This document shows positions 7,172-63,948 of a stretch of DNA of 64,000 nt, piece by piece. The DNA comes from Beroe forskalii. Its lineage: Eukaryota; Ctenophora; Nuda; Beroida; Beroidae. The notes beneath the pieces were generated by a model. The model searched no databases. It was not told the origin of the DNA and saw only the letters and a program-made list of their open reading frames with translations. Position numbers and translations under genes: made by a program. The stretch lies in the NCBI GenBank assembly GCA_011033025.1, contig WFMF01000063.1, forward strand, positions 432,572-496,571, read 5' to 3'. The first letter of the stretch is position 1; each line of letters opens with the position of its first letter.

Positions 7172-8131
7172 TTACACCCGTCCAGCTGTATTCTGCTGAT
7201 CCCCTCCTACCTCCACCCGTGGACTAGCCTTGGCACTCTCCTTGATATCGGGGTTAAGGTCCTTGTATTTGGGTCTCATCTTCGTCAGCAACATGAGGGA
7301 GAACTCAATGAACCAAAGGATGAAACACACCAGAACGAGGCACATGACGACTTTAACCTGCCACATGAGGGAGTAATCCTCTTCACTGTCATGATGCATG
7401 TACCAGGCGTAGACATGCCCCTCCTGGACATACCATCGTATTAACACCACGAAGTTACAGGGGCCTCCCACCATCGCTACAATCATGCTGACAGTTTCCC
7501 GGTCCCGGGTGAGGCGTGCCAGGCGGAGGAGAAGGGAGGAGGAGGGGGAGGGGAAGGGGGCGGTGAGGCGGGGGTACCGGCTTAGGAGGAGGATAATTCC
7601 GAGGATTAGATCCAGGACTTCCTTGAGGGAGTTAGCATAGGAACCTGAAACGCTGGGGGCAGGGGAGCTGTAGTAGTAGAGGGAGAGGACTGTGTAGCAC
7701 GTGGAAACGACAACAATTGCTATGGAAACAAGGTCTCCCAGGGCTTTACGGCCCATTTTCATGGAGTTAAGACAGTTCATAAGGTGGGACGAGAGGGATC
7801 GCGGTGTTTCTAATTCTATAAACGTGTCATCTGCCAAGTCCGATGTCGTATCGTGTTCAACAACGGGCTGTGGTGAGGAGGGGTTCACAGGAACTTCAGG
7901 TGAAACCCCACCTTCATTAGGTGGGGTTTCATTGGGTGGGGTTTCATCAGGAGGGGTTTCATTAGGAGGAGTTTCATCGGGAGGGGTTTCATCAGGAGGG
8001 GTTTCATCAGGTGGGGTTTCATCAGGAGGGTTTTGTTGAGCCTCCTCCCCATCGCGAGGGCTCTTTATTTCTATCTCGAAAACTTCAGCAGCTTCGATCT
8101 CATTCCCTTCCGACATAACAACCTGATGCAT
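7172..8131 (-). CDS. Unknown four-helix membrane protein with acidic Pro-rich N-terminus
   Basis: About 319 residues from the ATG at 8131 (a second ATG at 8116 is also possible). I do not recognise the family. Layout: acidic start, a PPDETPP repeat tract (roughly residues 33-72), a linker, then four hydrophobic segments: GDLVSIAIVVVSTCYTVLSL, VLDLILGIILLL, VSMIVAMVGGPCNFVVLI and VKVVMCLVLVCFILWFIEF. The last is followed by a basic, Lys-rich tail, which suggests a multi-pass protein with a cytosolic C-terminus. A good splice acceptor (TTTTAATCGCAG) lies just upstream of the ATG, so a 5' exon probably exists. PEX11 and tetraspanin were considered; neither signature is convincing. Confidence 0.6.
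   Translation of the reverse strand: MHQVVMSEGNEIEAAEVFEIEIKSPRDGEEAQQNPPDETPPDETPPDETPPDETPPNETPPDETPPNETPPNEGGVSPEVPVNPSSPQPVVEHDTTSDLADDTFIELETPRSLSSHLMNCLNSMKMGRKALGDLVSIAIVVVSTCYTVLSLYYYSSPAPSVSGSYANSLKEVLDLILGIILLLSRYPRLTAPFPSPSSSLLLRLARLTRDRETVSMIVAMVGGPCNFVVLIRWYVQEGHVYAWYMHHDSEEDYSLMWQVKVVMCLVLVCFILWFIEFSLMLLTKMRPKYKDLNPDIKESAKASPRVEVGGDQQNTAGRV
7912..8035 (-). repeat. Coding minisatellite, 15-bp unit (PPDET/PPNET)
   Basis: Eight units of 15 bp encode near-perfect D/N-E-T-P-P pentapeptides. The unit is a multiple of three, so copy-number change keeps the reading frame. Asp/Asn swaps between units come from single base changes. Confidence 0.9.
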
Positions 8132-16725: not shown

Positions 16726-19700
16726 CTATTGCGACGTATGTGATTATACAGTTAAGATTTAGATTAAAGCTAGTCCCTGATTTTTCTACAAATATTTTGA
16801 TCTATTTATGGTATCTGAATAATCTCACAGTTTCTGAATACTCTTTGAATTTGAAAGTTTGAATGAGGCACACTAGAGATTGCTAGGATCGATGCTGAAT
16901 TATACCTTTATATCACAGTTTACAAAAGTGAATGACGTCGAATTGACAATTACATATTTTTCGGTTTCAAAGTTTTAAGAAACAACCTGCAGTTGTTGAG
17001 AGATTTAGCTAAGTAGTCCTTCAATTGAACTTGTACCTAGATGCCAATTCTTTGCAGTGACAAGAGCACACGCATTCATCTGAAGAATGTGTACACTTGT
17101 GTTGCAGTAGAGGTGGTCTGTGCAGCTTTGGGGGCAGCCATCAATGTATTTCTCAAGAGCAGCGTGAGTGTATTCTCCCTTTGAAAGTTTGAACTTTTTT
17201 TGTTATGTTACAAAGAGACCATGTACTATACCCTCAAGTGTTATTAAGGAGAAATAGTGTTCAAAACAATGAATGGATCCATTGTGTGCTATTTTCAGGT
17301 TCTCCATTTCGGGGGAATCATTGGGATGTTCATCTTCATGTACTTCGCTGCCACCAGCCAAAACACAGCAACCACTCTCAAAAGGATGGGTACGTTTTAA
17401 TAGATAGTACTACCATATCAGCAGCTATTGTTTCAAATGTCGGTACACTGTATACATTTAGTGTGATTTCTCAACACAACCCCAGATTAAACATCGTTTG
17501 GTTATCTGGTATCATTATCATTATGGTACATTGGTGATAATTGAATTAGTGATCAACAAAATTCTGATTCTGATGGGTTCGTAAACGGAATTGTCTGGAT
17601 ACTTTTTGCAATTGTAGCATTCCTTGGTAACCTTTTACAAATGCATAATCATTCAATACTATACAGGTTACGTTTGTGGACTTGCTGGCTGCATTGGACT
17701 GGAATCTTCATACCTCATTGATTACGTCATCAGAGTTGAACCTTCGTGAGTAACTGTGTCAACTTAAGTCTTTTTCTACCAATTTTCGTCACATATTTGA
17801 TTCTAGGGAACTTCTTGGGAACAAAAAACACAGCCCACAAGTTTCCAGTGTTCAAGACCATTCGATTATTTTCACTGCGTTTGTATCCCCCTATTTTCTC
17901 AGGATTATTTTCACTGCGTTTGTAACCCCCTATTTTCTCAGGATTATCGTAACTGCGTTTGTAACCCCTATTTTCTCAGGATTATCGTCACTGCGTTTGT
18001 AACAACTTCCGTTGTGTTCGTTTGTTTCTCCCTCTCCGCCCTGTACGCTGAACGACGCTCCATGCTTTTCCTGGGTTCCATCCTCAGCACTGCCCTTCTT
18101 GGTCTCTTCTTCGTCTCTCTTGCCAACCTCTTCTTCAGAATCCCCACTCTAGCTTTGGTGAGTGGGTTGTGAGTCGGGTTCAGAATCCCCACTCTAGCTT
18201 TGGTGAGTGGGTTGTGAGTCGGGTTCAGAATCCCTACTCTAGCTTTGGTGAGTGGGGTCTGACTACACTTCTTGTTACTGAGTTGGATCTGTGTGAGTTT
18301 TGTTAGTTTAGGGCCCTAGTTTACGATGCAACTGTAACTAAGCTGCAAGTGTTTTTGTGCTGCAGCTTGCCGTACATTGACCGCACTTTTGCTATTTCTC
18401 TAGTCTGTAATAGGTTCCATTGTCCTTGTTAATGGTAACTTGAGCGCATGCTATTGTGTCTCAAATTGCTTTGCGATAACAAAAAGAACTTCTTTAATCT
18501 TATGAGTTTTTTGGTTGACCAAATTAGGCAATTACCAGAAATGAAACGATTAATTTTGGTGATGGATTCTTTGTGAGTTAAAAGCCGAGATTGAAAGAGT
18601 GAGGCCTCATATTATATTGAGGGGGGGGGGGCAACGCCCTTTAGGCCCCGAGGGTATTGAAAATCCTAAAAGAGGAAAAATTTTATTAAATCTTTTGTAG
18701 GGCTTCGGAGGATGAAAGTGGCCTGAAAGAGCCCTATAAAATGGGGCCCTAAACAGCCCTTCAAACAGTTTCCAGCAGTTGTCTAGGATAGGATCTATGG
18801 AAGGAGCCCTAGAAAGTGGAGCCTAAAAGCACGTTGCTCCCCCCCCCCCATGTTAGAAATAAAAGTATAAAGGCGTGGTATATAACTATACTTGTATATA
18901 ACAAGTATTGAGCAATAACCGCAGAAACGCACTCTGGCTCACATTAAAGTGCGGCAGTAGGTAGGTTTTTACACTTTGTAATCACGTGAAGGGTTTGAAG
19001 GACTATTAACTGACTAATATCACTGCATGAGGGAGAGGGATATCCGCAAAGTTATAGGAAGTGCGACTGAAGAGAAGAGTGAAGTAAGAAGTATGTGGTC
19101 ACCGAAACCACATTGTGGTGTCCGGTGACACTGCTCACATTTAGTGTATTTTGTAACTTCCGTTTTACAGGATACATTCCAGGATACATTCCATGAGCTT
19201 ATTATCATGTTTTATCAATGAAGTTTTCAAATACTAATATGAAACAGTTACTTTACAAGAAATAACAGTTACTATACAAGAAATTAGAAAGTATACAGTC
19301 ACTATACTTTGAATGGGGGCAAAATAATGTTTTAAAAACTTTATACAACACTACTTTATATAATCAAATATGAGGTTCTAAGACCTCAAATATGACTGTA
19401 GCGCTGAAGATGTTCTGAAAGTACTTTACTGTTTTAACAATCAGCTCGTGTGTCTCATTAGAGTGTTATGAAACGGTGAAACCTGGCAATGGACAGTGAC
19501 AATTATTCTGGCGATCGAAATTTTGAGGGTTCGAAAATATGATTATGGGGATTCTTTTTATATTTCTCATGATAATAACGTATGATAAAGACGCCAGATT
19601 GAAATTTTGCGGAGGTTAATGATATGGGCATTTTCCATCAAATCCTCTAATTTCTTTCCGCAGTAGAATATGTCTCGTATGGTAAATGGAGAGATCGAAT

Positions 19701-20272
19701 CCCTCGGTTTTGGGTTTGAAGTATTTGATATGCTAAAATTACACTTCATCCCTCTATATATATAACTGAGTAGGTGAGTAAATGAGTGCAGAGTGAGTCA
19801 ATGAGTGAGAAACTTTTAAGTAAGTTGTAAGTACCCAGTGGCAGGTAAATAGGCTACAATTTGCTGATAAGATTCTCTTCTTTCAGCTCTCGGTCTACGC
19901 ATCTCTGATCATCTCTTGCCTCTTTGTCATGTACGACACCCAGTTAATCGTGGAGAAGAAGAGCCTGGGAGACGACGACTTCATCTGGTGAGGAGACAAT
20001 CGCAAATACTTCTTTTTCAATTTATTTTTCTGAAAATCACGAACCAAAATTGAACAATTCTTTTCTCGAACCATTCAAAATACGTGTAATGATGGACTGA
20101 AGTGTTTAGAGTCTTATTAAACAGGTTTGACAAGTTGATTGACAATCATTTCCCCTTCTGGCACTCTGTGGATCTGTTCATTGACTTCATCATCATCTTC
20201 AAAGACCTGCTGATCATCCTGACCAACAAGGAGGAAAAGAAGAAGGTGGGTTTCCTCAATGAAGAGGTGTAG
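16464..20272 (+). CDS. TMBIM6: Bax inhibitor-1 / TMBIM6
   Basis: ER multi-pass channel-like protein of the TMBIM family, which leaks Ca2+ and suppresses ER-stress death. Exons: 16464-16543, 17058-17163, 17299-17389, 17667-17745, 17980-18157, 19887-19987, 20125-20272; phases agree, giving about 260 residues (human 237). It starts MNRFDR like other BI-1 proteins. Family signatures: [34 protein letters not shown], and [20 protein letters not shown] with the DTQ motif of the pH-sensing Asp pair. Six to seven hydrophobic helices. The C-terminus is ambiguous: reading on gives [11 protein letters not shown] then a stop. A donor at 20246 (GTGGGT) can instead join a tiny exon at 21824-21835, giving the basic end KKKRRN that is more typical of BI-1. 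Exon 5 has tandemly duplicated acceptor and donor regions. Confidence 0.95.
17864..17979 (+). repeat. Tandem copies of the TMBIM6 exon 5 acceptor
   Basis: Three extra copies (39, 39 and 38 bp: 17864-17902, 17903-17941, 17942-17979) of a unit made of the exon start GATTATNNTNACTGCGTTTG plus TATTTTCTCAG precede the true exon at 17980. Every copy ends in a usable CAG acceptor. Only the last keeps the reading frame. Confidence 0.9.
18136..18262 (+). repeat. Tandem copies of the TMBIM6 exon 5 donor
   Basis: A 45-bp unit beginning CAGAATCCCCACTCTAGCTT contains the donor TTG/GTGAGT. Copies lie at 18136-18180, 18181-18225 and 18226 to about 18262; the first two are identical. Reading through to a later donor meets an in-frame TGA. 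Confidence 0.9.
18620..18852. mobile_element. Small element with poly-G/poly-C inverted ends
   Basis: In the intron after exon 5 of TMBIM6, a run of about 11 G followed by CAACG begins a block that ends with CGTTGCT and a run of C. The interior repeats GGGGCCCTAAA / AGCCCT motifs. No ORF. Architecture resembles the larger G-run element at 46681-49613, though the sequences differ. Confidence 0.55.
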
Positions 20273-33016: not shown

Positions 33017-36000
33017 TTATAACATTCTTATCTCCTTCACAAATCCCTCGTTATCTGACAAAGCTTCGGGCGCAAAGGCAGCACACGTGACCCGGGATTC
33101 GTGGGACCGGAACCGGTGGTAGCCGTCATTCTTATCCCGTCTCAGCTGCTTCTTCAGAGGACCTGGTGAAAGCAATGGGGATTGCATGGCTGGGAGTTTA
33201 AGATTGTTATTCAGATAATAAGGAGATTTTGGGTGACTTCAACAGGTGAATTCAACGTGTTTTAATTTAATTTTAAAGGGCCTTCAACAGACTTGTTTCA
33301 GTCTTTTTCGTTTCCATACAGGATCCAGTGAAGTGTGACTGTTAGCATTAAGAGAGCATTTGACTGTGACGCACTTCAATGGCGCAATTCAAAGAATTCT
33401 AAGAAACTCTGGCAGTTTCAGCATCCTATTACCTTTCCCAGAAGCGTTGCTGAAGATTTTGTAGTGGGTCTCCGTTTCCCAGAAGTAACAGAAGTTCTTC
33501 TCATCTCCGCTGATGATGATCTTTCCGTCGTGGGAGAAGGAGGCTTTTATTTGGGAGGAAACGTTGAGGAAACCCTTGTACTTGCACGTCAGCTGCCAGT
33601 TCTGAAGAAAGAGAGAGAATATGTAACACAGGAGTTGCCACATCTGAGATCAGTGTCTGAAATTTCCACAAAACTGCCATTTGTACGTGCGAGCTACTGA
33701 TTCAACATTATATCCACGTACGTAAATGGCACCGCGCAATCGGAAATTTCAGAGTGATCCTCATTTCTCGAGATGGCGACACCTCTGTGACACAGGAGGA
33801 AATATATCAAAATTATTCTGACCAGGTGTTGCAACTCGCGCAACCCAAAATTGTGATATTTCATCAATTCATGAAATCGATTTTTATGTCGCACTTTACG
33901 AAACTTCTGCAGGTTATTCGATTGAAATACTAAAACTCTGAAATACACAGGTCCGAGAGACTAAGTACGTCAATTACACCATTTTTGGAGGAACAAAGAA
34001 TGACGAGCTATGACGGGCAACGGAGGATGTTATTGTTATTGCTATGTAACAATAGTTTTCACATTTCACAAGACCTCAAAACCTATTGATGGGGGCCATG
34101 GAGGCATGTTTGCTAAATGCGAAATATTATCATACGGATAAACAAATTATGAGATCCCCATGTAGATTAATAGGGAAATTTGATTGCAGTCTTCTTTGCC
34201 TGTTTGCGCTCAAACACCAAATGAATGGATTAACCTAAGTTCATGATTACAAATAACTTTAATATATTTATTTTTTATTTCTCGAGTATATGAGCGTCAT
34301 TCCGTCATGAATAGAAGGACCAACGCACGTCAAGAAACCAATTCTAAAGAGAAATAGGAACGATCACGTGATTTTCGAGTTGTCGTCAAAGGACCACGTG
34401 ACATTCGAAAACGTAAGCAGGCTTTGTGAGGAGAAGAAAAAACAAATTTGCTATTATACCATGTTAGGCTGAGTGTGCAAGTGTTGAGAAAAATGAATCA
34501 CGAGCGACATTTTGCCCCCACTCGCCATTAAACCTCATTTATTTTGTTGCAACATTTACCTGCAGTAACCTGTTAATCCCTTGGATGAAACTAAGTTTAG
34601 AAATATTCTTGGTATTGGTTTTCCTGAGTTATGTTAGCGGAAAACCACGCGATGACAGAGCTTTCTACGACCGGAGCAACAGTGAAAGAAGGAGAAAACA
34701 CATGGATTTACCGGACTTGAGAAAGGATGAAGATTCACCGGACGCTACTACCAGCTCAACCTCTTCATCTTCCAGTACCTGGCCCACCACTTCTAGCTCC
34801 TCCAGCTACCCTTCTTCTACCTCCTATACTTCCAGCTCCACTTCCTCTAGCTCTTCCTTTACCACCTGGTCATCGCCAAACACCCTGACTTCAAGTTCAA
34901 CTTCACCAACCACAAGCACCTCGTCAAGCCCAACTTACAGTTCTTCAACGTCTTCTTCATCGAGCTACGGTTCAAGTTCAACATCACTATCAACCAGCAC
35001 CTCTTCCAGCCCAACATCATCCACAGGCACAACTTCATCTTCGAGCCTAAGTTCAAGTTCAACAACCCCAACAACAAGTTCTTCTTCCACCCCCACATCT
35101 TCCACGGAAACAACCAGCACCTCGTCCAGCCCCACTTCAAGTTCAACATCCACAATGATAAGTAGCTCCTCGAGTGATTTCTCAAGTTCAACTGCACCCA
35201 ATGAGTTGGCATCTGATGCTGCTGGTTCAGACAGTTCCTCAGCGAGCTCCACTTCCATCTCGACATCTTCAAGCTCATCCTCTTCTTCCTCTTCTTCATC
35301 CTCCTCCTCTTCCTCATCTCTTCTTCATCCAGTTCTTCCTCCTCCTCCTCCATCTCTTCAACTTCAACCTTCTTCCCCTCAAGTTCTCAAGAAAGCACAG
35401 AAATAACTGACACATCCATACAAGAAAGCACTACGGAATTAAACGTCACATCCGTAAAAGATCCACCGATCCAAGCGATCGGTGGAGACATTGCAAAGAT
35501 TTTGGATGTGCCCAACAAGATCAAACAAAAGGAACTGATTGAGATATTGCAAGAGGTTAAAGATCAAGACGGCTACAACATCGGATTTGAGGCTCAGTTA
35601 GGAGCGCCAGAAAAGTCACTCGCTGCTAAGATGACACTGACAATTTTCGTGAATTTGATTACCGGCTGGTTCTTATTTTAGCACCATGAGACTTCGTTAT
35701 GTTTTATCACATTGAATTTGTATTGGATAATGATTGATAGACTATAGAGCTTGATCTAGAGTGATATGAACACAAACAGTGTCGATGGAAAGTGGAAAGA
35801 TTGCTAGTTGTACAAGGAGAATTTAATGATTAATCAAAATAAATTACTGTAAACCCTAGTGTGGGCATAAAAACATGATAGGAATCTCGAAGAAATTCCG
35901 AATACGATATTAATTGACTTATTGACAATGTTAATTTAAATCCTATATCAAGATATTGCTTTTAGAACAATAGTTACGGCTGAAGCACGGTTCTGTGTCA

Positions 36001-39000: not shown

Positions 39001-42000
39001 TTATCATGAAAACGCGCGAGGGTTTAACGATCACAACATTAACTTCTCAGCATATCCCTCATAGTTCATACCTTGAGGTAGTACTTCTCGACGAAGGTGT
39101 TCCACACTGACTTCAGCACCCAGATGTTGATGTTTTTATCGTCCCCGGCACTAGCGAGCACTTTACCACCGGGTGACATTGTCATCACCCAGATAGCCTT
39201 CACGTGGGCCTTGTTTATTGACTGCAGCTCGATTACGTTGAACCTGGGGGAGGGAGAAGTCTCATACTGCAGGTTTATTCTTGTAATAATTTCGTCAAAC
39301 CTGGCGGGAGATTTTATTGAAAACCTACTGGGGGCACTACTAAGGGCTTCTAAAAAGAAAGAATAAATATAACCAGATAAAATCCCTTAGCATTGCATAG
39401 CACGCCAATTGAGATTCGAAAGGTGGTTGAAACTCAACCTAGAGCTGGTCCCAGTCTCACACCGCTGTTTAGCGTGGTAATATGGTGAGTAACAAGTCAT
39501 TATCAATGCAAACCGTATTTCACACTTAAACTGCAATCACTACAAGGTACAAACGTATTTTAATAAGATTTAATTCGAAAATCGAGTCCGTTTTTTCAGT
39601 TTGGCAACAAAACTGATCCAAATATGTGCTTCCTTGCAAGTATAAGCCAAAAATAACACGAATTTTAACAATCATCGGCAAGATTCTGCGGAAAAAGTGG
39701 CGCGATATTTCATTAGGATTCCCCCATGGTTACACATATCGGTTTACATATAATTCATGACGGCCCCAAATTTACCGCAACATTGCTCAACATCGGACAA
39801 ACTCCCTTCAGTCCTACTACCCTCCCAGCTACAAAATTACACAAATAACTGTAACTGAACGGGTCACACACCATAGTATGGACGAGTTAGAATGACAGCT
39901 TGCTTAGTTGTGAATTAGCGACTTCATGTCGCACAAAAAGGTCTTTACCCAGTAATAACCCTCCCAAGACTTCAACTTGTCGTTTTCTGATTTGTAGTTC
40001 TTTAAGGAGAGATTTGGGTACACTAACTTGTCGTTTTCTGACTTGTAGTTCTTGTAGGAAGGGTTGGGGTACACTCTTCGTTTTCTGACTTTCGTTCTCC
40101 TTCTTCGATACCCGCACGTTCTTTGACAAGTTCTTCACGCTCTTCGACATGCCCTTCATTCCCTTCACCCCCTTCTTAGCGAAGCTCTTCAGCTTAGTCC
40201 GGGACTTCGGGGTGTCTTCGGGGTGTGGGGCACCGTTGTCTTCCTGACAAAGAAATTGATATTTCAGCCACAAATGACAACATGATGAGTACTAGATTAA
40301 ATGCGGAATAATCTGTTCCCGTTGGTATTATGAATCAAACTCCTTCTATTACGGCTTGTCAACAACAAATCTGAAAAGTCACTCCATGAGAAGCCAACCC
40401 ACCTCTAGAGTAGCGATTGTAACCCACCTCTAGTGTAGCGATTGTAACTCACCTCTAGTGTAGCGATTGTAACCCACCTCTAGCGTAGCGATTGTAACCC
40501 ACCTCTAGCGTAGCGATTGTAACCCACCTCTAGTGTGGGGCACCGTTGTCTTCCTGAAAAAATTCAGTTTTAGCCAAATGCGTAGCGATTGTAACATGGA
40601 TGCGATTGTGGACCCCTCTAATTTGGCTTTAAGAATAATCTGTTTCCGATTGTAACCCTTCTATTACGGCTTGTCTACTACAAATCTGAAAAGTCACTCC
40701 TGAAACCAACCCACCTCTAGCGTAGCGATTGTAACCCACCTCTAGCGTAGCGATTGTAACCCACCTCTAGCGTAGCGATTGTGCTCCTGGATCCCTGCAT
40801 GTAGGAACTGTTATCGCTGTCACTCTCATGGTTTGCAGAGTACCCGTACACCTCAGTCAGGTGTTTGGACAACGGGTCTGCGTCTGAAGAAGGATTTGTA
40901 ATGAAGTGGAGGCTTTCTTATTTGCAGGAAGGATTTACAATTTGCAAGAAGATTTTGAATTTCCAAGAACCATAACACTAACAGTAAGGATGGGTTAGAG
41001 TATTTTATATTCAATTCGTCAGAAAGAAAAGCAGTAAGCTGTATGGACACGTACAAAACTGGCCAGGCTAATTGTGTACGTGTCAGAGAGATGCAATCCG
41101 TGTCTTCAACAGTAAGATTTTCATATTGGTTCATACACGGTGGGCACCAAGAACTGTAGTACTAATGAGACTATCAATCAACTAACCGACTAAGAAAGTG
41201 TGACGAAACAATGTAAATGACGTCAGAGTCTATGGGGCAGGGGGAGTCAAAAATGCATCTACTCTGCTTGCTCTAATTTATTCGCAAAATTGACTCCATT
41301 TTGCATCCTAACTGTCTTTGGTATTGCTTGAATTTGACTCTTGAAAACTGATAAACGCATCCCCATTTCCCGACTTAACATTACTTGAAACATCACCCTG
41401 GTATACCTTTGAGGAAGCTCTGACATCTTGTCCATAGTCGTTGATTGGCCCGTGTCCAGATCTTTGATAACCATCATCGCCAGAGCTTCCTCATCACACT
41501 GCAATAACAGATTCTCAAAGCGTAAAATTAGCGACAATACTTAATTCCGCAATTGTGTACAAAATGACTCTGAATCTCTGTTTGAAAACTTTGCCAAAGT
41601 CCCATTCTGCAGCTTGCTCGTCGCATAATACCTCGGGAGAGTTCTGTAAGCGGGAGTCAGGTGGGACGTCAGGAAGGGGATCTGAGGGCGGATCAGACTC
41701 CTCCTTCTCTTCTAGAATAGACTCTGAAACGTGGCAATGGTAAGGGTTGGTACTTATATTTACGACTAGTTAGGTAATAGCCATAGCTCAAAAAATCATT
41801 TTCAGTAAGAGTATTAGTTTGCAGGTTCACTGAATTTTCATGGCCATCGGTAAACAAATATCGGCTTATGATCGTATGATCCTGGATTCATTACATCATA
41901 TCACCCACCAATCAGCGCTTGAGTTTACGGTCAACTCGCGCACTGCGATTGGCCCGAATCAAATCTGAAATTTTAAAATTTAATTGCTTCATATTTATCA

Positions 42001-52700: not shown

Positions 52701-54441
52701 CATTATTAGTATCAAGTCATCCAGTAACAAACTCTCAGTGAGTCAGTCACGCCGTTTGAACATTCCAATACCCTCTGGTTTTCTTGAGCTTGCTCACCTT
52801 CTTATTTCTAATTCAGTCTACTCACGACATCATGTATGTGGTCACATGAGCGCGATAACTGATACATGAATAACAGCATTATAGAAAATATTATGGAAGC
52901 CAGACATGTTGTCTTTCATGTCCTGAACTTTTAATCGACGTAAAATCGATAACCCCTCAGTTTGCCGTTTTGACTCAATACTCAGTCGCGGATTTTTTTG
53001 CATCAGGAATTAAGGTATCATGATGGCATCATGACGTCATGACATCATAAATTTCTCGTGAAACAAGGTTACACTTTCACGATACTTACATAGATGTGTA
53101 ACACAATTCAATCAAGCCATCTACTTGCCGTGAAATGTTAGCTGTTACGTAGGACACTTCTTAAGTTTGTTTACATTGTCTTGAAGCTTCCGTAGAAACT
53201 TCATACTTTATTACTTGATGCTCCCATCGATCTTGACTTCTGACATAACTTATTTTTCTTGCATCGGTGCAACATAGAGATTCTATTTTTCAAATTTTAT
53301 AAAAATTTGGCAAGCTCCAAGGGCAAATGCAACACAATTGCAGGTGGTTATGGATTCCCTTTGGGTAATGCTCTTCGTTCACCATTTCAATAGGACCCTT
53401 CATCGGAACGTTGGTAGATTATCTATCTCTTAGATTATCATATTTTATGCCGTCAGCATAATATCCAAATATTCAGGTCCTATTGTTTATTGTTAGCTAT
53501 TACCGAAGCATATTTCAGATAATTCAATTAACATGTTTGGATTCAGCAGTCTAATTTTTCATCAAATCATAGCAAAAATTTATAGTTTTGGGACATGTAC
53601 AGATCCTGTCAAACCAAGACATTTTGTGGGCAAAAAGTGCCGACGAAACTTTGCAGACTCCAGTTCCGTTCTATTTGAGGCGTGTCCAACTAATGGCTGC
53701 AGAACGTTTCATCTGTCCCAGGTGGCTCTTAGGGTAACATGAAGGGACCAGGTAGTGGGACACATATGTCCACGTAGACAGCATTCTGAGTGGCATTCCG
53801 AGCTGTAATACGGCTCTCATCGGGCTCTGCAGACTGCTATAGTTTGCAGACTGTTCTAGAGAGATCATGCAGATAACCTTTTCAGAGGTTATTAGTCTTC
53901 AACATAGACAGGGCTGTAAAGTTATCTTGTATTTCGTCCAGTGTACTTAGCTAACAGAATTTCCTTGGTGTTTATAGAATTTACTAATGCTCCGCCAAGT
54001 TATATATATTATTTTTCAGTATTTTGTGTGTGCCTTGTAGTATTTAATTTGGTCTCCTCTCACTGTCCATTGTTTGCTTAACAGTTGTACCATGTGTTGT
54101 GTCGTACACGCCATTTACATTCAATTAAATCGCATCTCAATCTTCTGCTTTTTATCCCGGCCCTAATCGCTTTAACTATAATGTAAATTATAGTTTTTTG
54201 TTTTTTTCAAGAATTCGCAGTGTCTATATATAGTGTCTTTATATGTGCGTTTAATTGACACTGTTTTGACTACTATTTCTCAATCGAACGGTTTATTTTC
54301 AGGCAATGAGGCTATGATTTCTTTCATCCGGACTAATTTGACTTCTCCGCGAACCGCTCTCGTATCATCAACCGACCAACCGTCTGGTCCAGATTTGCTA
54401 CTCCTTTACCGCTTCCATTGAAACAGATCCAGCCTTCAAGG
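49793..54441. other. Gene-free stretch; one possible exon at 49967-50182
   Basis: A 71-codon plus-strand ORF (from VWGQAMYGDL-type start to SMPLFRV) is followed by AATAAA at about 50234, so it could be a terminal exon of an unknown gene, but I see no family match. At 54298-54301 a good acceptor (TTATTTTCAG) precedes the first sulfotransferase, suggesting a 5' untranslated intron. Nothing else is supported. Confidence 0.3.
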
Positions 54442-56061
54442 ATGAAGTACACAAGCATATTGTTGACAGTTACATCATGCCTGTTCATCCACTCTGTTAT
54501 CATGTTCTGGCTGTTCCACAATAATACCTTGAGTTTGAGGCTGGAAACGTCCACAACGATATCCAGGCAGTCACAAGACCCTTCTGCCTTCCTGTTGGAA
54601 GAACTGGATGATCTTTGGGAGGAAGAACTGATCAATGATTTGTTCGAGACGGGGATCAAGGAACAGAGGAATCTGAACATCAGAGTGAGAGGCTCGGGGA
54701 TTAAAAGGGCTATTCAGGGGAGCGGCTGGTCGTCAGATTATCCTCCTTCTCGGGAGGAATCGGCTAATGCTGAGCCGGGTCACAGTGACAAAGTCAGCGA
54801 TCAGTCAGTTGTCATGGCAACCAGTACCAATAAAGCAGTAGATGTAACTCAGGAGGCGAATGACATAGTAACTGATCAGATTGATAATGCTGAGACAGCG
54901 AACAATGCCATCGAGATCAAAGATAAGGCTGCGGAGACCGAAGTAACTATAGATAATGATGAGGCGCACCTAACCAGTTTCAAGGATCAGCCTGATCAGC
55001 AGGAGACCACAGCCTCTGATGACACACATATGAGCATCAACGACGATAAAGCAGACAAATCTGAGGAAACAATCCAGGACAAGGATAGAAAACCGAAAAT
55101 GGTGCTTGTTTTAACAGAAAGTAGACACGGTTCCACTTGGCTGATGGATCTACTTTCCTACCCCGACACTTCTGTGCCAGTGTTTGAGCCACTCAACACA
55201 CCGTTCCTCAAGATGTATGCTAGGAGTGAGGAAGTGAGGAAGCAAGCGTTAGCGAATGGTTTAGATCCTGCAGTTTACAGCGACTGGAAGGCCGTGCTCC
55301 TTGCTAGGATATGTTTGTGTGACTTCCACGGTGGGAAGATAGACGAGTCCAAGCTGTCAGGTACCAACTACGGCTCCATAGCCGGACTGGGCTACAAAGC
55401 CAAGCGGTTTGGTTCAGGGTATGAGGAAGAGATTTACAACAGCATGGAAACTTGTGATCGTAACGACTCAATGATAGTTCCCAAAACCATCCGATTGTAC
55501 AACATCACCGAACTCTCGCTGCTTCCTGACTTAGGGTGCGATAACTTCAAAGTGATCCACCTGATCCGTGATCCTCGGGCTGTTCTTCTGTCCCGAATGA
55601 GGGTTTTCCACGAGCTTTACGACGGAAACAAGCTCCTGGGAGAACATCTGGGAGGGCAGGAGGAATTCCCGGAGGAATACATGAGACGAGCAGCACGAGA
55701 CCTGTGTTCCCACCACCTCCACAACTACCAGGTGGGAATGAACCCTCCCTCCTGGCTGAGAGACAGGTACAAACTCGTGAAATACGAGGATCTCGCAGCC
55801 CAGCCCGACAAGTGGGCCAGGGAGTTGCTTGAGTTCATTAGCATCCCGTACACAGATACCTTTGAGGAGTATGTGTACAACACCACCCACATCAAGGACA
55901 GGGGCCAGCGAGACAGAGGAAGTTACTCGGTGGAGAAACAATCAACGGAAATAGTAAATTCGTGGCGACAGAAACTTAGGAAGTACCATTGGAAGACCAT
56001 TGAAAAGGAATGCAAAGAAATTATGGAAGCCATGGACTACAAACCAGATTATGTTACTTAA
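54442..56061 (+). CDS. Carbohydrate sulfotransferase, paralogue 1
   Basis: Single-exon Golgi type II membrane enzyme of 539 residues that would transfer sulfate from PAPS to a glycan. Start chosen at 54442 (MKYTSILL) because it places the transmembrane anchor like paralogue 3; an upstream ATG at 54418 adds eight residues. Residues about 1-30 form the anchor. Residues about 60-215 are an acidic, repeat-poor stem. Then the 5'-phosphosulfate loop LTESRHGSTWLMD (about 220-233) and the 3'-phosphate motif HLIRDPRAVLLSR (about 372-385), followed by RRAARDLCSHHLHN and VKYEDLA. This order fits the CHST1/CHST3 group; glycan acceptor unknown. AATAAA sits 1-2 bases past the stop. Shares a near-identical block (55657-55809) with the other two copies. 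Confidence 0.92.
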   Translation: MKYTSILLTVTSCLFIHSVIMFWLFHNNTLSLRLETSTTISRQSQDPSAFLLEELDDLWEEELINDLFETGIKEQRNLNIRVRGSGIKRAIQGSGWSSDYPPSREESANAEPGHSDKVSDQSVVMATSTNKAVDVTQEANDIVTDQIDNAETANNAIEIKDKAAETEVTIDNDEAHLTSFKDQPDQQETTASDDTHMSINDDKADKSEETIQDKDRKPKMVLVLTESRHGSTWLMDLLSYPDTSVPVFEPLNTPFLKMYARSEEVRKQALANGLDPAVYSDWKAVLLARICLCDFHGGKIDESKLSGTNYGSIAGLGYKAKRFGSGYEEEIYNSMETCDRNDSMIVPKTIRLYNITELSLLPDLGCDNFKVIHLIRDPRAVLLSRMRVFHELYDGNKLLGEHLGGQEEFPEEYMRRAARDLCSHHLHNYQVGMNPPSWLRDRYKLVKYEDLAAQPDKWARELLEFISIPYTDTFEEYVYNTTHIKDRGQRDRGSYSVEKQSTEIVNSWRQKLRKYHWKTIEKECKEIMEAMDYKPDYVT

Positions 56062-59000
56062 AATAAAATTTCGTAGTCTAGCAATGCAAGAGTTTAGGAT
56101 ATAATTTATAATTGTTGATTAAGGATGTTTTGAAAAGCAAACAAATTAGATTGGAGTAATAGGTGTCTATTTTTCATTATGTTGACAATAGGCATTATTA
56201 TGAATTTCGGAATGAATGATTTTATGTATAATAATTATTTATTTTACACAAATATGTATTTTTATGCCTCCAAATTTGACCTTTCAACAGGCTCCAAGAT
56301 CGAAGTCACTTATGAACCATTTCAACCGGTCTTTTGGACCAAACTTTTGCAGTGGTCACCAGGATAACGGTAAAATCTGCCAGATATCTTGAAGTCGTGA
56401 TTATTTGCTGGAGCTGATTATTTTCGAATTCCAACATTATAATTCCTGAATTATGGTGATGCTGATGGCCGTGGAATCTCCTTAAACCTCTCAAAGTAAG
56501 TAAAATTTCCCTTTTATCTGTTTATCGAGACTATCAGCTATCATGGTAAATATGACGTGTTAATAATGCCAAATACTGATTACTGGTGTTGTCAATGAAC
56601 CTTTTTTGGCAGTCTGGAAGAACGCCGACTTCTCTTCGGCGGACCTAAGGTGGACTCACTTTATCAGACCTATGGAGAACCTAATCGGGAAGGATTAGGA
56701 TTGGGAGGATGATAAGGGCTAGGGTAATTGTTGAAGTTCTATTTGGAGCAGCAAATAGAGCTATGGTTAGGGTTAGGATGAGTCCGCCTTAGGTCTGCCG
56801 AAGGAATGTCTCCGTTAATGGACCCTTCACCCTATGGACCAAAATTTAAATTGTTGGGATGGGGAGTCAAAATATAGGATCGAATTTAGATTCTTACAAG
56901 AACCATGAAGCCTTTAGTGTGACCAGATAATCGGATTACCATAGTGCCATGTGCATAATTATAATTAATTCTGCATACCTACTTGTTTTGTTTTGTATAC
57001 GCTAAATCAAAACAGGACTCGGACTAGAGTCCTGAAAAGATCGAACAACCCGTGCCAGGGGACACGGGACCAAGCAAGGTCCAGACTCGGATTAGAGCGA
57101 GACCAAGCCTAGCACCCCACGCCCGCCGACAGTGCTCCGACTCCTGTATTGGAGTATAGCTACGGGTGGTACCTGAAAGGGTGAGGATTAAGCATCATCA
57201 GTTCTCGTTTCGGTCATTTGTTCGGATGCTTACGGACAGACACTTTGGTTCTGGACCAACACTGAAAAGCTGACACTTGCACTAGAATTATACAGACACA
57301 CAAGGCTTTACCCTCTTATATTGCTTAAATCTATGGGTCGAATAGAGAGGTACCATTTGTTTTAATTTCACGAATGCTGCGAGATTCGAGAGACAAACGT
57401 CTGCCCCAATATTGTGTAGTGTAGTTATCAGCATCCCCCTTGTTGATCCCTGCGTGTATGCATGCTGACTTTGGGAAATTGAGGCATTCCGAACAGACCA
57501 TTACAGAACAGACCAGTTAGGGTAATAGTTATAAAAAACAGATCGACCAAATGGTCGATTTCACATGTATACTTGCTTGTATACTTCTCTATAAAGGAAG
57601 GCACCCCGCAGTATCCCCGTGATCCATTGGAACTTTAATTCGTTTATCAAAATTACGACGAGAGCAGAAAAATAGCAACAAAACCCACGATCGAATCACA
57701 GTCCCTACTTCTGTTGCATACCTACTTCTGTTGCACCCAGGTTCCAGACCTAAGATTATTTAGACAGCATAAAATTAATAAAATTATCCAGCCGATAATT
57801 GCTCCAGCCGCTCTCTCATTACATATGCCATAATGTCCTGTGCGTGTAATTTGATTAATTAACTGGCGGGGACCCGGCAAGGCATGAAAATGTAACACTT
57901 GATACACACCGTAACATAACACTCGATATTTTCTTCCGTCTTCTAATTCTATATGCTCCAACTTAACATGCTCTGTTCGTTGATCTCCTTCTTTTGTGCT
58001 CCTTGACAAGTTCACGGCTTCTTCAGGGGTTGTCTCATGACTCATTTGCGTGTGTTTGTGTGTGGGGTCTTACGAATGTTACCAGACCTAACATATACTG
58101 TAACAAATGTTCTTTTATACCAACTACGTTTTTGAACACAAACCCAGGGCAAAAAGGGGGCGTCGACGAAGCGGTTAATGACCCCAAGACCAATTATATA
58201 GATGGCATGTTTATTTGTTTGGAATGTTAGAGCACCGGAAAACGTTTAATTTGATTCACTCGACTCATGAAAGTATTGCCATTTCCGAAATAATGAAATG
58301 ATATTATTATTGATGATAATAGAAATTAAATTATTATCAATCAACTAGGTATCCACAGCCCAAAGATGGAGATAACTAATAATTATTATTTATTCTCAGA
58401 GTTTGTCTTATCTTTGTCAGTTCTGATAACATGTTTTTATTGCGACATTAACTAACAAGTACCTATGACCAACCGTTACGATTAAGAATCTATTTCTATA
58501 TGACAATAGATGGCTCATGGTGTAAGTCATCAGAAAGTTTTTAGGCCGAAATTAGATTGAAAACTTTAACAAAGTTAGCTCAGGTGAGTTATTATGTTCG
58601 GTTGTTTCAAGTCCACAAATAATTAACTACTGAATAATCCAGTACCAGCAAGTTCGAATGACAAATGTTTGTGATGCTAAAGTACATTTACTCATTACTG
58701 CTGACTGGTATTTTAATCTACAAACTACAGTACAGAATTGCTGTAGTTTGGACCGTGCATATCTCAGGGTTAGAAAGGCAACATAATATTAGTATTCGAT
58801 GGGCAGAGTTTTGAATATACCTAATCGCTTTATTTTCCGACGACATCTCTGGAATAAACGACCATTATTTACCAATGTGACAGCATACTAATAACAAGTA
58901 GGGTCCCCAGTATCATTGAAAGACATCCCTAGTACTAATGATTCGTTGAAGCTGACCAATGACCATCACCTTCACTCAATCAACCACCCGAGAAAAAGAC

Positions 59001-59724
59001 TGCATAAATTGCATAAAATATTGCATAAATATTATTTACCATTACATGACGAACAACATACCAGTTTTACCGTTGGTAATTGTATTTTGCCTTTTTTCGA
59101 TATACGCACTGCTCTCATAATTAAGATCGCCGTTTTTGTCTTTAGTTTGTCCGATTTGATATACTTAGTATTGTGGCTTGCACAGCCTGCTGTAATGTAA
59201 TTTGTTTTGCAGTCAACAAATAAAATGAAGCATCCTAGTTCCAACGACTCTAAAAACATATACATTATAAAATTATATAACAGGTACAGGGTGTTTCGAG
59301 TCTCGTGTCTCAAATGTAAATCTTTATTGCTGAGTTCATATAGAAGGAAATGCTTGATTATCGTTTTGTAAGTCTCAAGAAGTGGACCCCTAATTCGATT
59401 TTCCGATGTATTGAAAAATTATATTGTATAACGAATTTTCTTAAAAAGTGAGTCCAAAATTTCAGAAAGTTGTAATAACTGCATTGGCGCTAAAAAGCAC
59501 TTCCTGTAAACCGCTTTAATTTTGTTTGTTCATAGGAGAAATTTCATAGGAGAATTAAAATGGTCCAGCCTTAGAGCATTTATTAGTTCTAACTGAAAAA
59601 TTTGAGGATGGTTTGTACGGAGAGTTCATGTTCCCTTGAACAATACCGATCCTGTTAATGTCACCAGACCGGGATCTACAACTATTCTGTGCACTCCATC
59701 CCCTAACTCCGGAGACCTTCCAAC
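56062..59724. other. Gene-free stretch between sulfotransferases; one doubtful ORF
   Basis: The minus-strand ORF 57722-58045 (107 residues, MSHETTPEEAV start, one hydrophobic helix AGAIIGWIILLILCCL) could be a small membrane protein, but I recognise no family. 58713-58780 is the inverted copy of the repeat at 3945-4011. The rest is AT-rich with short palindromes. Confidence 0.3.
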
Positions 59725-61541
59725 ATGCGGGTAAAAACGGGATTCTCGGTGCTACTTTTAATCACTGTTATTCATATAACCATGCTGCTTCTCCCACACC
59801 ACTACATTGCTTCTATCATGATCCAAGTGCAGTCTTTGAAACCCACCGTCAGACCACCCAGCGAGGGAGCCCAATCAGGGCACTGGCAGGAAGAGATTAT
59901 AGATAACATTTTCCAGCTGCCTGGAGAGACTCTGCCTGATGATGTCAGCGAGGAAGAGGAGGAGGAGGAATGGAGTGAGGTTGGGACTGTGGAACATCTT
60001 CTTACCCCGGAACATGTAACAACAACAAAGGAGGTTACAGAGATGTCATTTGAAAATGAGATACACACGACACAGCAAACCAAAGTTACAGCGTTTGTAA
60101 CCAAATCACCATTCGGAGATGGTGATTCGTTAGGGGAAAACTGAGGAGAGACAGCCCAGTTGCAGCCTCATCTCACCTCCGGGATCTTGTAGAATCCCAT
60201 CAATCCGAGCATGTTACTGAGAATCGCGAGATAGATGGGAAGCCAACACCACCAAATGAAATCCAGAAGATGGTGGAACCCGTGCAAACGGGGAATTCTA
60301 GGACAGAAGATATTGAAAATCAACCCAAATCTAAAATGGATGCTGAGCCAGTGAAGCTGTCAGAAGCTCCAGAAAATCAGGAAAACTCAGCGAAAGGGAA
60401 GGACCCAGTTCCTCAACCTGAACAAACGAAGAAGTCAGAAGAAATCGTGACACTGCAGCCTGATGGTATTATAAAGCAAGACCCAAAACCACAAAATCCC
60501 AACTCAGAAAGAATCTCCATGCAGTCAGAAGCTAAGATACAAGAATCTGAGCAATCAGACATCTCAACTAAACCCAAAATGGTGTTGGTTCTGACTGAGA
60601 GTCGGCATGGTTCAACGTGGACGATGGATCTCCTATCCTGGCCGGAAACCTCCGTTCCCGTATTCGAACCCCTGCTCTTACCCTTTCTAAAGATGTATGC
60701 TATAGATCCTGAAGTGAGAGCTGAAGCCCTGACAGAGGGCCTCAATCCAGCTGTTTTCGGAGACTGGAGGGCAGTTACCCTGGCCAAGATTTGTCTCTGT
60801 GACTTCGATGGGAGTAAAACCAAAGAGCTGGTGGGAGGTAAGAAATACGGGGGTATCCGCGGATTGGGTTACAAGTCGAAACGACTGGGAACGGAGTACA
60901 AAGTTGAAGTTGCTAAAAGTGTAGCCATCTGTAACAACGCAGACTCGCTGATCGTTCCCAAGACCATCAGACTGTACAACATCACGGAACTCTCGCTCCT
61001 CCCAGAGTTAGGATGTGATAATTTCAAAGTAGTCCATCTCGTGAGAGACCCCCGAGCCGTACTTCTGTCCAGGATGAAAGTGTTCCACGAGCTTTACGAC
61101 GGGAACAAGCTCCTGGGAGAACATCTGGGAGGGCAGGAGGAATTCCCGGAGGAATACATGAGACGAGCAGCACGAGACCTGTGTTCCCACCACCTCCACA
61201 ACTACCAGGTGGGAATGAACCCTCCCTCCTGGCTGAGAGACAGGTACAAACTCGTGAAATACGAGGATCTCGCAGCCCAACCCGACCGGTGGGCCAGGGA
61301 GTTGCTCCACTTTGTGGGATCTAAATACACAACCCAGTACAAGGACTACGTGTACAACACGACCCATGTGAAGGAGCGGGGAGTTAAGGACAAGGGTAAC
61401 TATGCAGTAGAGAGGGAGACCCAGGAAGTGGTGGAGGCGTGGAGAGGCAAACTCCTGGAGACTCATTGGAGGGTCATTGAGCAGGAGTGTAGGGAAATGA
61501 TGCAGGTTATGGGGTACAAACCTGACTTTGGGGATACATGA
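59725..61541 (+). CDS. Carbohydrate sulfotransferase, paralogue 2 (frameshift in stem)
   Basis: The N-terminal reading frame (59725-60144) gives a signal-anchor (MRVKTGFSVLLLITVIHITM) and an acidic Glu-rich stem. It ends at TGA 60142. The catalytic frame is open from 60126 to 61541, so a shift of one nucleotide in the overlap 60126-60142 would join them. The catalytic half is intact: LTESRHGSTWTMD, HLVRDPRAVLLSR, RRAARDLCSHHLHN and VKYEDLA, ending KPDFGDT. Either sequence error, a very small intron, or a recent lesion. If the lesion is real, an ATG at 60270 could still give a soluble or mislocalised enzyme without its Golgi anchor. Same order of motifs and same size range as its neighbours. 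Confidence 0.88.
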
Positions 61542-61607
61542 CGCGTTCATGTGGAATTATAGGCTAGTTTTATAATTAATCTAGATTTTTAAATGAAACT
61601 CGGTTTT

Positions 61608-61836
61608 AACCATTCTTTAATTGAACCGTTCTTTAATTGAACTATTCTCTAATTGAACCTTCTTACTTCTTATTTATTATCATTCAACCTTATATGATTG
61701 GGGTATTCATCAAACAGTTTTAACCATTCTTTAATTAAACTGCTCTTTAATTGAACCATTCTTTGATTTAACCTTCTTGCTTCTTGTTGATTATTATCAT
61801 TCTAACTTATATGACTAGGGTATTTATCAAATCGTT
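61608..61836 (+). repeat. Tandem duplication, about 114 bp, two copies
   Basis: Two consecutive copies of a block starting TTAACCATTCTTTAATT, with internal TTTAATTGAAC triplication, through CTTCTTACTTCTT to GGGGTATTCATCAAACAGTT. Lies just 3' of paralogue 2. The rest of the gap 61837-62502 is AT-rich and featureless. Confidence 0.75.
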
Positions 61837-62502
61837 TAGATGATTTTTCATTTTCTGCACGTTTTCTACACAATGATCGACTCCAGACAGATTAAACTAT
61901 ACATGAATTGCCTGAGATTACCATCGATTCATTACCATGTACATCACTGCCGATGATTCATGCTTGTCATATTTTGATTTGCTGTGTTCAGTGTGTGTGT
62001 TCAGTGTGTCTATCCATCACCGAAACATCCAGACATCAAATATAAGATTTGTTCGCACATATTAGATTTGTTCAGACATAAGATTTGAGCATGCATGCAT
62101 GCGAGGATCCCGTTCAAAATCATTTAAATTCCGTATAATTTAAGCTGTTTGTTTTAAAATCTTTAGTAATGATCAGTTTTTACATGAATCATTTTGAACT
62201 ATTTTATCATTTGTTTTTATTGATTTAATCTGATTGATAGTGCAATCATTTGATCAAATATCGACTTGCAGAAAAATTACCCTCATGAATTTGGTACATA
62301 TTTGTTGCCAATTGGATAACGTGTTTCAAGATGCCCTTTTATCCCTGTCGTTTGATAAAAAGGTCTCTCAGAGTCGAATCTATTTAATCTAAAATTCAGG
62401 GACAAGATGTAAAATAAGAACAGAAAAACCCTCCTTTCTTCCTCCAACCTAAAACTGCACATCTCATCTATTACTCCTAACAATCACGCAACCCTCGGAG
62501 TT

Positions 62503-63948
62503 ATGAACTACAAAACCCTGTTCCTATCCTTGAGTCTGGTCCTAACCCTCCACTCCATGGTCATGTTCTGGATATTCCACCGGAGTGGTCTTAGTCTCAC
62601 ACTCTCCACAACCATTTCTCAACAAGGAATGGAAGACGTCCTATTGACAGAGTCACGTGACATCTCGGTGGAGTTTCTGGAAGAACTGGATGAGTTGTGG
62701 GAGGAACAGATAATAAGGGATTTACTGGGTGAGGAGACTGATCAAATGGAGAAGGGTTTGGAATCGGAGGCTTCAGTAACGCAAGTGTTTGGAACTCCAC
62801 GCGAAAATGGTGTAATTATAGATCAAGATGAAGGTAGAGCAGAAGAATCAGAAGAAAATACACCTGAAGTGGCAGTTGATGAATCAGAGAACGATGATGC
62901 TGAAGACTTACATGATCAGACTTCCGACTCAAATCCAATAAAAGACACAGATCAAGATGACGAAAGATCGGATAAAACTCAGTTATCTAAGATGATTCTA
63001 ATCATGACAGAAAGTAGGCACGGATCCACCTGGCTAATGGACCTCCTATCGTACCCCGAAACTTCAGTCCCTGTCTTTGAGCCGCTGAACTTGCCCCACT
63101 TCCTCCAAATGTATGCTCAGAGCGAGGATATAAGAAAGGAGGCATTGGCTCAGGGCTATGACCCTGTAGCTTGGGGAGATTGGAGAGCGGTGATCCTTGC
63201 AAGAATATGCCTGTGTGACTTCAATCGACGGAAGGTAATAGAGGGTAGGACTTTCGGTGGTATAGGTGGCTTGGGATACAAAGCCAAACGCTTGGGTACC
63301 GAGTTCAAGCACGAATACGAGCGGAGTTTGAGAATCTGTGGGAAGAGCGACTCCTTCACCGTTCCCAAGACCATCAGGCTTTACAACATCTCGGAGCTTC
63401 ATCTTCTGCCTGGGTTCGGGTGTAGCAACTTCAAAGTTATCCACCTGATCCGAGATCCCCGCGCAGTCATGTTCTCACGGATTGATGTGTTCCGAGAGTT
63501 GTACGATGGGAATAAGTTGCTAGGAGACCGGATGCCGAGCAACGATCAGGAGGAATTCCCGGAGGAATACATGAGACGAGCAGCACGAGACCTGTGTTCC
63601 CACCACCTCCACAACTACCAGGTGGGAATGAACCCTCCCTCCTGGCTGAGAGACAGGTACAAACTCGTGAAATACGAGGATCTCGCAGCCCAGCCCGACC
63701 GTTGGGCGGAGGAAATGTTCGGGTTTGCGGGTATTCCGTACACAGACGAGTACAGACAGTACGTCTACAACACGACACATATCAAGGAGAGGGGTAAGGA
63801 GGACAGGGGCAGTTACTCAGTGGAACGGGAAGCAAGCGAGGTGGTCAACTCGTGGAGGAGTAAATTGTATGAGACTCACTGGAGGACTATTGAACAGGAG
63901 TGTGCTGAACTCATGAGGATCATGGGATATGATTTGAAGTTTTCCTAA
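62503..63948 (+). CDS. Carbohydrate sulfotransferase, paralogue 3
   Basis: 481 residues, single exon, intact. N-terminal anchor MNYKTLFLSLSLVLTLHSMV, an Asp/Glu-rich stem (about residues 50-165), then MTESRHGSTWLMDLLSYPET (5'-phosphosulfate loop, near residue 170) and HLIRDPRAVMFSR (3'-phosphate motif, near residue 313). C-terminal helices end MRIMGYDLKFS. Relative to paralogues 1 and 2 it has a few extra residues (RMPSND) just before the shared block 63547-63699. AATAAA at 63973-63978 gives a plausible poly(A) signal. Predicted Golgi lumenal PAPS-dependent transfer to a glycan; acceptor not assignable. Confidence 0.93.
   Translation: MNYKTLFLSLSLVLTLHSMVMFWIFHRSGLSLTLSTTISQQGMEDVLLTESRDISVEFLEELDELWEEQIIRDLLGEETDQMEKGLESEASVTQVFGTPRENGVIIDQDEGRAEESEENTPEVAVDESENDDAEDLHDQTSDSNPIKDTDQDDERSDKTQLSKMILIMTESRHGSTWLMDLLSYPETSVPVFEPLNLPHFLQMYAQSEDIRKEALAQGYDPVAWGDWRAVILARICLCDFNRRKVIEGRTFGGIGGLGYKAKRLGTEFKHEYERSLRICGKSDSFTVPKTIRLYNISELHLLPGFGCSNFKVIHLIRDPRAVMFSRIDVFRELYDGNKLLGDRMPSNDQEEFPEEYMRRAARDLCSHHLHNYQVGMNPPSWLRDRYKLVKYEDLAAQPDRWAEEMFGFAGIPYTDEYRQYVYNTTHIKERGKEDRGSYSVEREASEVVNSWRSKLYETHWRTIEQECAELMRIMGYDLKFS

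Follow-up and report, generated by a model that had tools for sequence, protein, structure and literature searches.

Exon 5 of a TMBIM6 gene in the window (the whole 64,000-nucleotide stretch analysed here) carries a tandem array at each of its ends, and in both arrays the repeated unit joins exonic to intronic sequence and includes the splice signal, as in a splice-junction-spanning tandem duplication or VNTR. We consider it probable that these are two independent minisatellites straddling the two ends of the exon and tolerated there, perhaps with slight unproductive splicing. The unit lengths differ at the two ends and the arrays therefore cannot stem from one event, so that the preliminary description was right to argue against a single slippage, and at least two independent events are required.

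Two arrays on exon 5 of TMBIM6

The preliminary call of a TMBIM6 gene was borne out by a Pfam profile search, in which residues 37-245 of the hand-spliced product matched PF01027 (Bax1-I) with E=1.3e-35. The protein of the innermost-site-pair form covers positions 5-207 of the 207 in the profile; within the Bax inhibitor-1 family we take the gene to be TMBIM6, by comparison with the human sequence. All exons lie on the forward strand. Exon 4 (17667..17745) ends in CCTTC/GTGAGT and joins exon 5 in frame by translation, the frame-keeping form of exon 5 (17980..18157, 178 nt) has both of its junctions covered by the Bax1-I match, and exons 6 (19887..19987) and 7 (20125..20245, end as modelled) follow from the joined reading frame, exons 4-5-6-7 together forming an open reading frame. 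A profile search of the genome assembly (216 Mb in 1,134 contigs, the window lying on contig C725 of 680,952 bases) returned six matches to the Bax1-I family. The window locus appears among them as a single-exon piece covering profile positions 87-158, and each of the remaining five is a nearly full domain in one open frame. From its gene content and structure, we take the genome to be that of an animal.

The acceptor-side array, delimited by TRF and by direct repeats, occupies 17864..18003 on the forward strand (period 39, 92% matches, score 220). Its direct repeats start at 17864, 17903, 17942 and 17980, defining two units of 39 bp (17864-17902 and 17903-17941), one of 38 bp (17942-17979) and a last partial copy within exon 5 (17980-18003). 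Each unit reads as the start of exon 5, then a pyrimidine-rich tract and then CAG, and the two outer units are identical at 38 of 39 positions. There are thus four copies of the exon start and three CAG acceptors (ending at 17902, 17941 and 17979), that is, two extra acceptors. The preliminary description had counted three extra copies, each with its own AG; the copies are there, but before the outermost, at 17864, the sequence reads ...CCATTC and has neither an AG nor a pyrimidine tract. Use of the extra AG at 17901..17902 (exon start 17903) would add 77 nt and use of that at 17940..17941 (exon start 17942) 38 nt, each with a frameshift and a stop, and the AG at 17978..17979 keeps the frame. 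A search for the 17-mer spanning the acceptor, allowing 2 mismatches at most, gave three occurrences, all of them exact, against 0.11 expected, and none of 100 shuffles reached three.

Just before the outermost copy, window positions 17840-17863 show a weak likeness to the end of exon 4. This likeness was equalled by 13 of 300 shuffles, and we do not claim that the outermost copy originated from spliced mRNA; when exon 4 was aligned freely and locally with the intron stretch before 17864, 217 of 1000 shuffles did equally well.

The donor-side array, delimited in the same way, spans 18134..18256 on the forward strand (period 45, 98% matches, score 239), with direct repeats starting at 18134, 18179 and 18224. 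A full unit consists of 24 exonic and 21 intronic nucleotides, donor included. Units 1 (18134-18178) and 2 (18179-18223) are identical at 45 of 45 positions, and the third (18224-18256) is partial, its first 33 nt matching with one mismatch before the sequence diverges. Of the two extra 45-bp copies first described, both hold as copies, with the amendments that the third matches only in part and that each full unit contains GTGAGT twice. This hexamer is found at 18158, 18169, 18203, 18214 and 18248, and once more at 18293. The donor at 18158..18163 keeps the frame; those of unit 2 (18203..18208) and unit 3 (18248..18253) would extend the exon by 45 and 90 nt, respectively, and bring in an in-frame TGA. 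The second GTGAGT of unit 1 (18169..18174), which recurs at 18214 in unit 2, would by simple arithmetic add 11 or 56 nt and shift the frame. It lies within 12 nt of the unit, TTGTGAGTCGGG (18167-18178 and 18212-18223), that are missing from the last copy. Since these 12 nt resemble the adjoining TTGGTGAGTGGG, the second GTGAGT appears to be filler that a local template switch, possibly a serial one, copied in.

We combined the acceptors giving exon starts 17903, 17942 and 17980 with exon ends 18157, 18202 and 18247. Only the innermost pair, 17980-18157, yields an open form; the other eight of the nine contain a premature stop, in agreement with the earlier statement that one acceptor keeps the frame and that later donors meet a stop. 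The exon-inner site is thus the one that keeps the reading frame, as in the array type known from human CBS. All of these stops precede the exon 6/7 junction, by 134-349 nt. A premature stop that far upstream of the last junction leads, by the usual rule, to nonsense-mediated decay (NMD), which is therefore expected here, and in the manner of poison splice sites all eight alternatives give stops of this type, as judged by sequence only. The sites had also been described as usable in each copy, and they score alike: each of the three acceptors reaches 8.34 bits and each of the three main donors 4.6 bits, with untrained matrices. With equal motif scores, the choice among the sites cannot be read from the motifs. 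In competition experiments on duplicated splice sites the intron-proximal site is often favoured; in TMBIM6 the intron-proximal sites are the outer, stop-bearing ones, which by analogy would count against easy tolerance.

Arrays at other predicted junctions and in the surrounding contig

Donor-spanning arrays were found at two more predicted genes, here called B and C, within 304 kb of the contig. In gene B, on the reverse strand, a 25-bp unit of exon end and donor (...CTAGAG/GTGGGTT) is present three times at 40708..40782, with the frame-keeping donor GT at 40764-40763. A second array of the same unit (5.5 copies, 40396..40533, same strand) follows a duplicate of the acceptor and beginning of the next exon. 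This duplicate, at 40553, stands 310 bp from the frame-keeping start at 40243, and between the two acceptors the intron is present a second time in partly diverged form (91% over 129 nt in the best block). The joined exons of gene B matched no Pfam family. On the same strand, an open frame further downstream (39066-39386), which we infer to belong to gene B, matched WD40 weakly (E=2.7e-5; 24.9 bits against a Pfam cut-off of 27), and the gene may be WDR44-like.

Gene C lies about 72 kb upstream and, with its array, occupies L016:6197-7110. A 49-bp unit, made up of the exon end ...GGCAAACCAG and a donor, stands 18 times in tandem behind its exon (L016:6218-7110). The exon of 50 residues had no Pfam match and is predicted to be coding from its open frame, codon score and splice motifs. 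The exon-proximal donor, CAG/GTAATC, scores 3.46 bits, against 8.81 bits for the CAG/GTGAGT of the copies scored, 17 of the 18, and gene C may be a stronger case of splice competition than TMBIM6. Toward the end of the array the copies follow an alternating two-unit pattern, suggestive of unequal exchange in the recent past.

A DNA search of the 216 Mb assembly, which skips very common words, found no copies of either TMBIM6 array beyond its own locus, and the same search found none for the arrays of genes B and C. This argues, within the limits of the search, against a dispersed, introner-like element, for which similar copies at many loci would be the sign; none of the arrays had them. The same kind of search of the one assembly returned no second haplotype of the TMBIM6 locus.

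The surroundings are rich in minisatellites, with 63 arrays of period 20-200 making up 5.5% of 254 kb (4,000 bases of which are N). Two large arrays in opposite orientation, one of them with about 90 units, share one 51-bp unit (C725 offsets +93949 to +94952 and +102093 to +106760 from the window start). At window positions 54337-63948, three adjacent open frames, presumably sulfotransferase-like, have long stretches in common and are apparently tandem duplicates.

Do arrays prefer splice junctions?

The suggestion that a duplication process targets splice junctions was not upheld by random placement of the arrays. Among 142 arrays in 304 kb, five overlapped junction-like sites against 5.5 expected, and across eight thresholds the observed number was always below the expected (from 6 vs 6.9 to 1 vs 1.4). 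A looser test on 88 arrays gave, at five settings, 15 vs 9.7, 9 vs 7.1, 7 vs 4.1, 8 vs 5.1 and 5 vs 3.2 (observed vs expected), with the observed value reached in 16, 86, 31, 37 and 65 of 300 placements, respectively; this excess of 1.3-1.7 fold is not significant, the loosest setting (16/300) being borderline at best. Of these 88 arrays, 10, 10, 8 and 3 had donor-like sites recurring at unit spacing at 3, 4, 5 and 6 bits, against 5, 3, 2 and 1 when reversed, and 3, 3, 2 and 1 had such acceptor-like sites at 5, 6, 7 and 8 bits, against none when reversed at any of the four cut-offs. Overall, though, the sites themselves are commoner in the forward than in the reversed sequence (donors 716 vs 460 at 4 bits, acceptors 85 vs 37 at 7 bits). 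The 88-array and reversed-sequence tests thus lean upward and the 142-array test does not, and none of them is clear.

These tests amount to a weak negative on targeting, since the junction caller is itself weak, with codon scores from 2,349 codons and untrained splice matrices; its codon scores placed exon 5 of TMBIM6 on the wrong strand. Owing to thresholds and TRF boundaries, the 142-array test missed two of the four known exon-edge arrays (the TMBIM6 acceptor array and that of gene C), all four of which are present at the loosest setting of the 88-array test. Donor- or acceptor-like units occur in 10 of the 142 arrays, including the TMBIM6 donor array and that of gene C. Four of the other eight, at offsets -110718, -140157, +93949 and +102093, were rejected by eye as exon edges.

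The three loci in 304 kb, the two arrays on one exon, the 310-bp-offset duplication in gene B that carries an acceptor, and the greater frequency of unit-spaced donor- and acceptor-like sites in the arrays than in their reversed counterparts would all suit a duplication process with a preference for splice junctions in this genome. Given that neither placement test shows significant enrichment and that forward sequence is richer in such sites in any case, we regard a preference of this kind as very unlikely. If four junction arrays fall independently on some 300 junctions, the chance that two share an exon is about 2% (a rough figure, the number of junctions being assumed), and at that rate several exons with two arrays would be expected in the whole genome. 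Mildly unusual are the double hit on one exon and the presence of such arrays at three loci on a single contig.

Probable origin and tolerance, and known counterparts

For the TMBIM6 arrays we infer a mutational mechanism, a preference for inner sites, NMD and near-neutrality, as follows. Replication slippage or template switching would have copied the exon edge along with its splice signal, and later unequal exchange perhaps contributed. The inner acceptor (17979) and the inner donor (18158) would still yield the normal 178-nt exon, and the copies would be tolerated because these innermost sites still make that exon and whatever lies beyond them is removed as intron from the productive transcript. 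Spare sites, when used, would lead to premature stops, most likely in low-level transcripts cleared by NMD. A duplication internal to an exon would alter the protein, and also the frame unless its length were a multiple of three. A duplication at an exon edge would leave an intact inner site and could have any length, as the units of 38/39, 45, 25 and 49 bp illustrate. Such a tolerance filter would favour exon-edge duplications of any length.

Arrays inside open frames of the window have periods of 15/45 (7913-8034), 15 (34798-34853), 81 (34952-35105), 51 (39974-40098) and 21 (40115-40158). Exceptions exist, at 35274-35359 (read as 6, 9, 12 and 29) and in low-score arrays of period 11 (18095-18122 and 40205-40226); a rule that such arrays always have multiple-of-three periods is thus a tendency only, on which we do not rely.

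The spare sites could instead switch part of the TMBIM6 transcripts to NMD in a regulated manner, with copy number tuning the fraction. Such regulation would fit the stops in all eight alternative pairs and the equal strength of the sites by motif, and it has a parallel in human CBS, in which, a review reports, activity is reduced by additional 31-bp repeats where exon 13 meets intron 13 (PMC5188458, in excerpt); by the same analogy, near-neutrality may not be strict. Random duplication of a junction readily creates stops, however, and the arrays look recent from their sequence: the near-identity of some copies (all 45 positions in the two full donor units, 38 of 39 in the two outer acceptor units) points to a probably recent origin, which would leave little time for regulation to evolve, and too few differences separate the copies for them to serve as a test of whether the spare signals are under selection. 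We therefore hold regulated unproductive splicing to be unlikely. Still bolder, and to us quite improbable, is the idea that the genome turns over its exon edges fast through junction-spanning minisatellites, the copy number of an array tuning the NMD fraction; if true, genes such as TMBIM6 would carry heritable, fast-mutating splice-site dials.

We give hardly any credence to the gain of an intron or a new micro-exon, in which the duplicated segments would supply the GT and AG of an extra intron. Introns of about 20-26 nt are too short for ordinary animal introns, and this is the length of the neighbouring GT-AG intervals that do exist between the TMBIM6 copies. The 19-nt micro-exon proposed earlier is present as sequence (18184-18202), but its use is implausible, with an intron of 26 nt before it and a shifted frame. 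An artefact of assembly, with repeats collapsed or expanded, would be in keeping with a single assembly in which the first two donor units do not differ; it appears most improbable when the other copies differ at several positions, the unit lengths differ, and the pattern is seen at three loci with unrelated units.

Tolerated junction-spanning minisatellites, the reading we favour, have known counterparts, described here from excerpts of the published reports. In human CBS c.844_845ins68, 68 bp at the intron 7/exon 8 junction are duplicated, leaving two like sites in series (donors, in the wording of the paper); splicing strongly prefers the distal, exon-inner one, and the mRNA made is normal (PMC2630376). 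This runs opposite to the intron-proximal preference. TMBIM6 shares the duplicated junction and the like splice sites in series. The CBS allele has one extra copy of 68 bp, is a human polymorphism and is backed by RNA evidence, whereas the TMBIM6 acceptor array has three extra units of 38-39 bp and is known from sequence alone. CBS also carries a 31-bp VNTR, c.1444_1467+7(16_21), of 16-21 units, and both CBS variants are common human alleles (PMC2630376). By our own reading of its name, the 31-bp unit comprises 24 exonic and 7 intronic nucleotides and thus repeats the donor, and the TMBIM6 donor unit, with its 24 and 21, can be likened to it. The CBS repeat is polymorphic at 16-21 copies, unlike the TMBIM6 donor array with three copies in one assembly; the gene C array, with 18 extra copies, is nearer to it in number.

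Tandem repeats at exon-intron boundaries have also been described within human segmental duplications, where internal tandem repeats gave 162 boundary alignments and, after manual inspection, 27 intron modifications (PMC2812944, in excerpt). These resemble the TMBIM6 arrays in position; they involve splicing changes in recent primate gene families and have transcript support, in which they differ from TMBIM6. In potato RdRp, which gained an intron by tandem duplication of a boundary, a cryptic donor made the new intron, documented by 106 RNA reads (PMC4974935, in excerpt). As in TMBIM6, an intron end and exon start were duplicated, with putative branch site, pyrimidine tract and AG, but in TMBIM6 a new intron is not indicated. 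Tandem duplication is a genuine route of intron gain according to a review (PMC3443670), and a C. elegans minisatellite lies near alternative splicing (PMC4039745, in excerpt).

Taken together, and as far as these excerpts go, the TMBIM6 arrays belong to a known kind, the junction-spanning tandem duplication seen in CBS. Arrays of this kind, known from a human gene, thus occur also in another genome, where a single small region has them in several predicted genes and one exon has them at either end. Gene prediction may err at such arrays, which are natural experiments on the choice of the spliceosome among identical serial sites and a source from which alternative splicing and new introns can arise.
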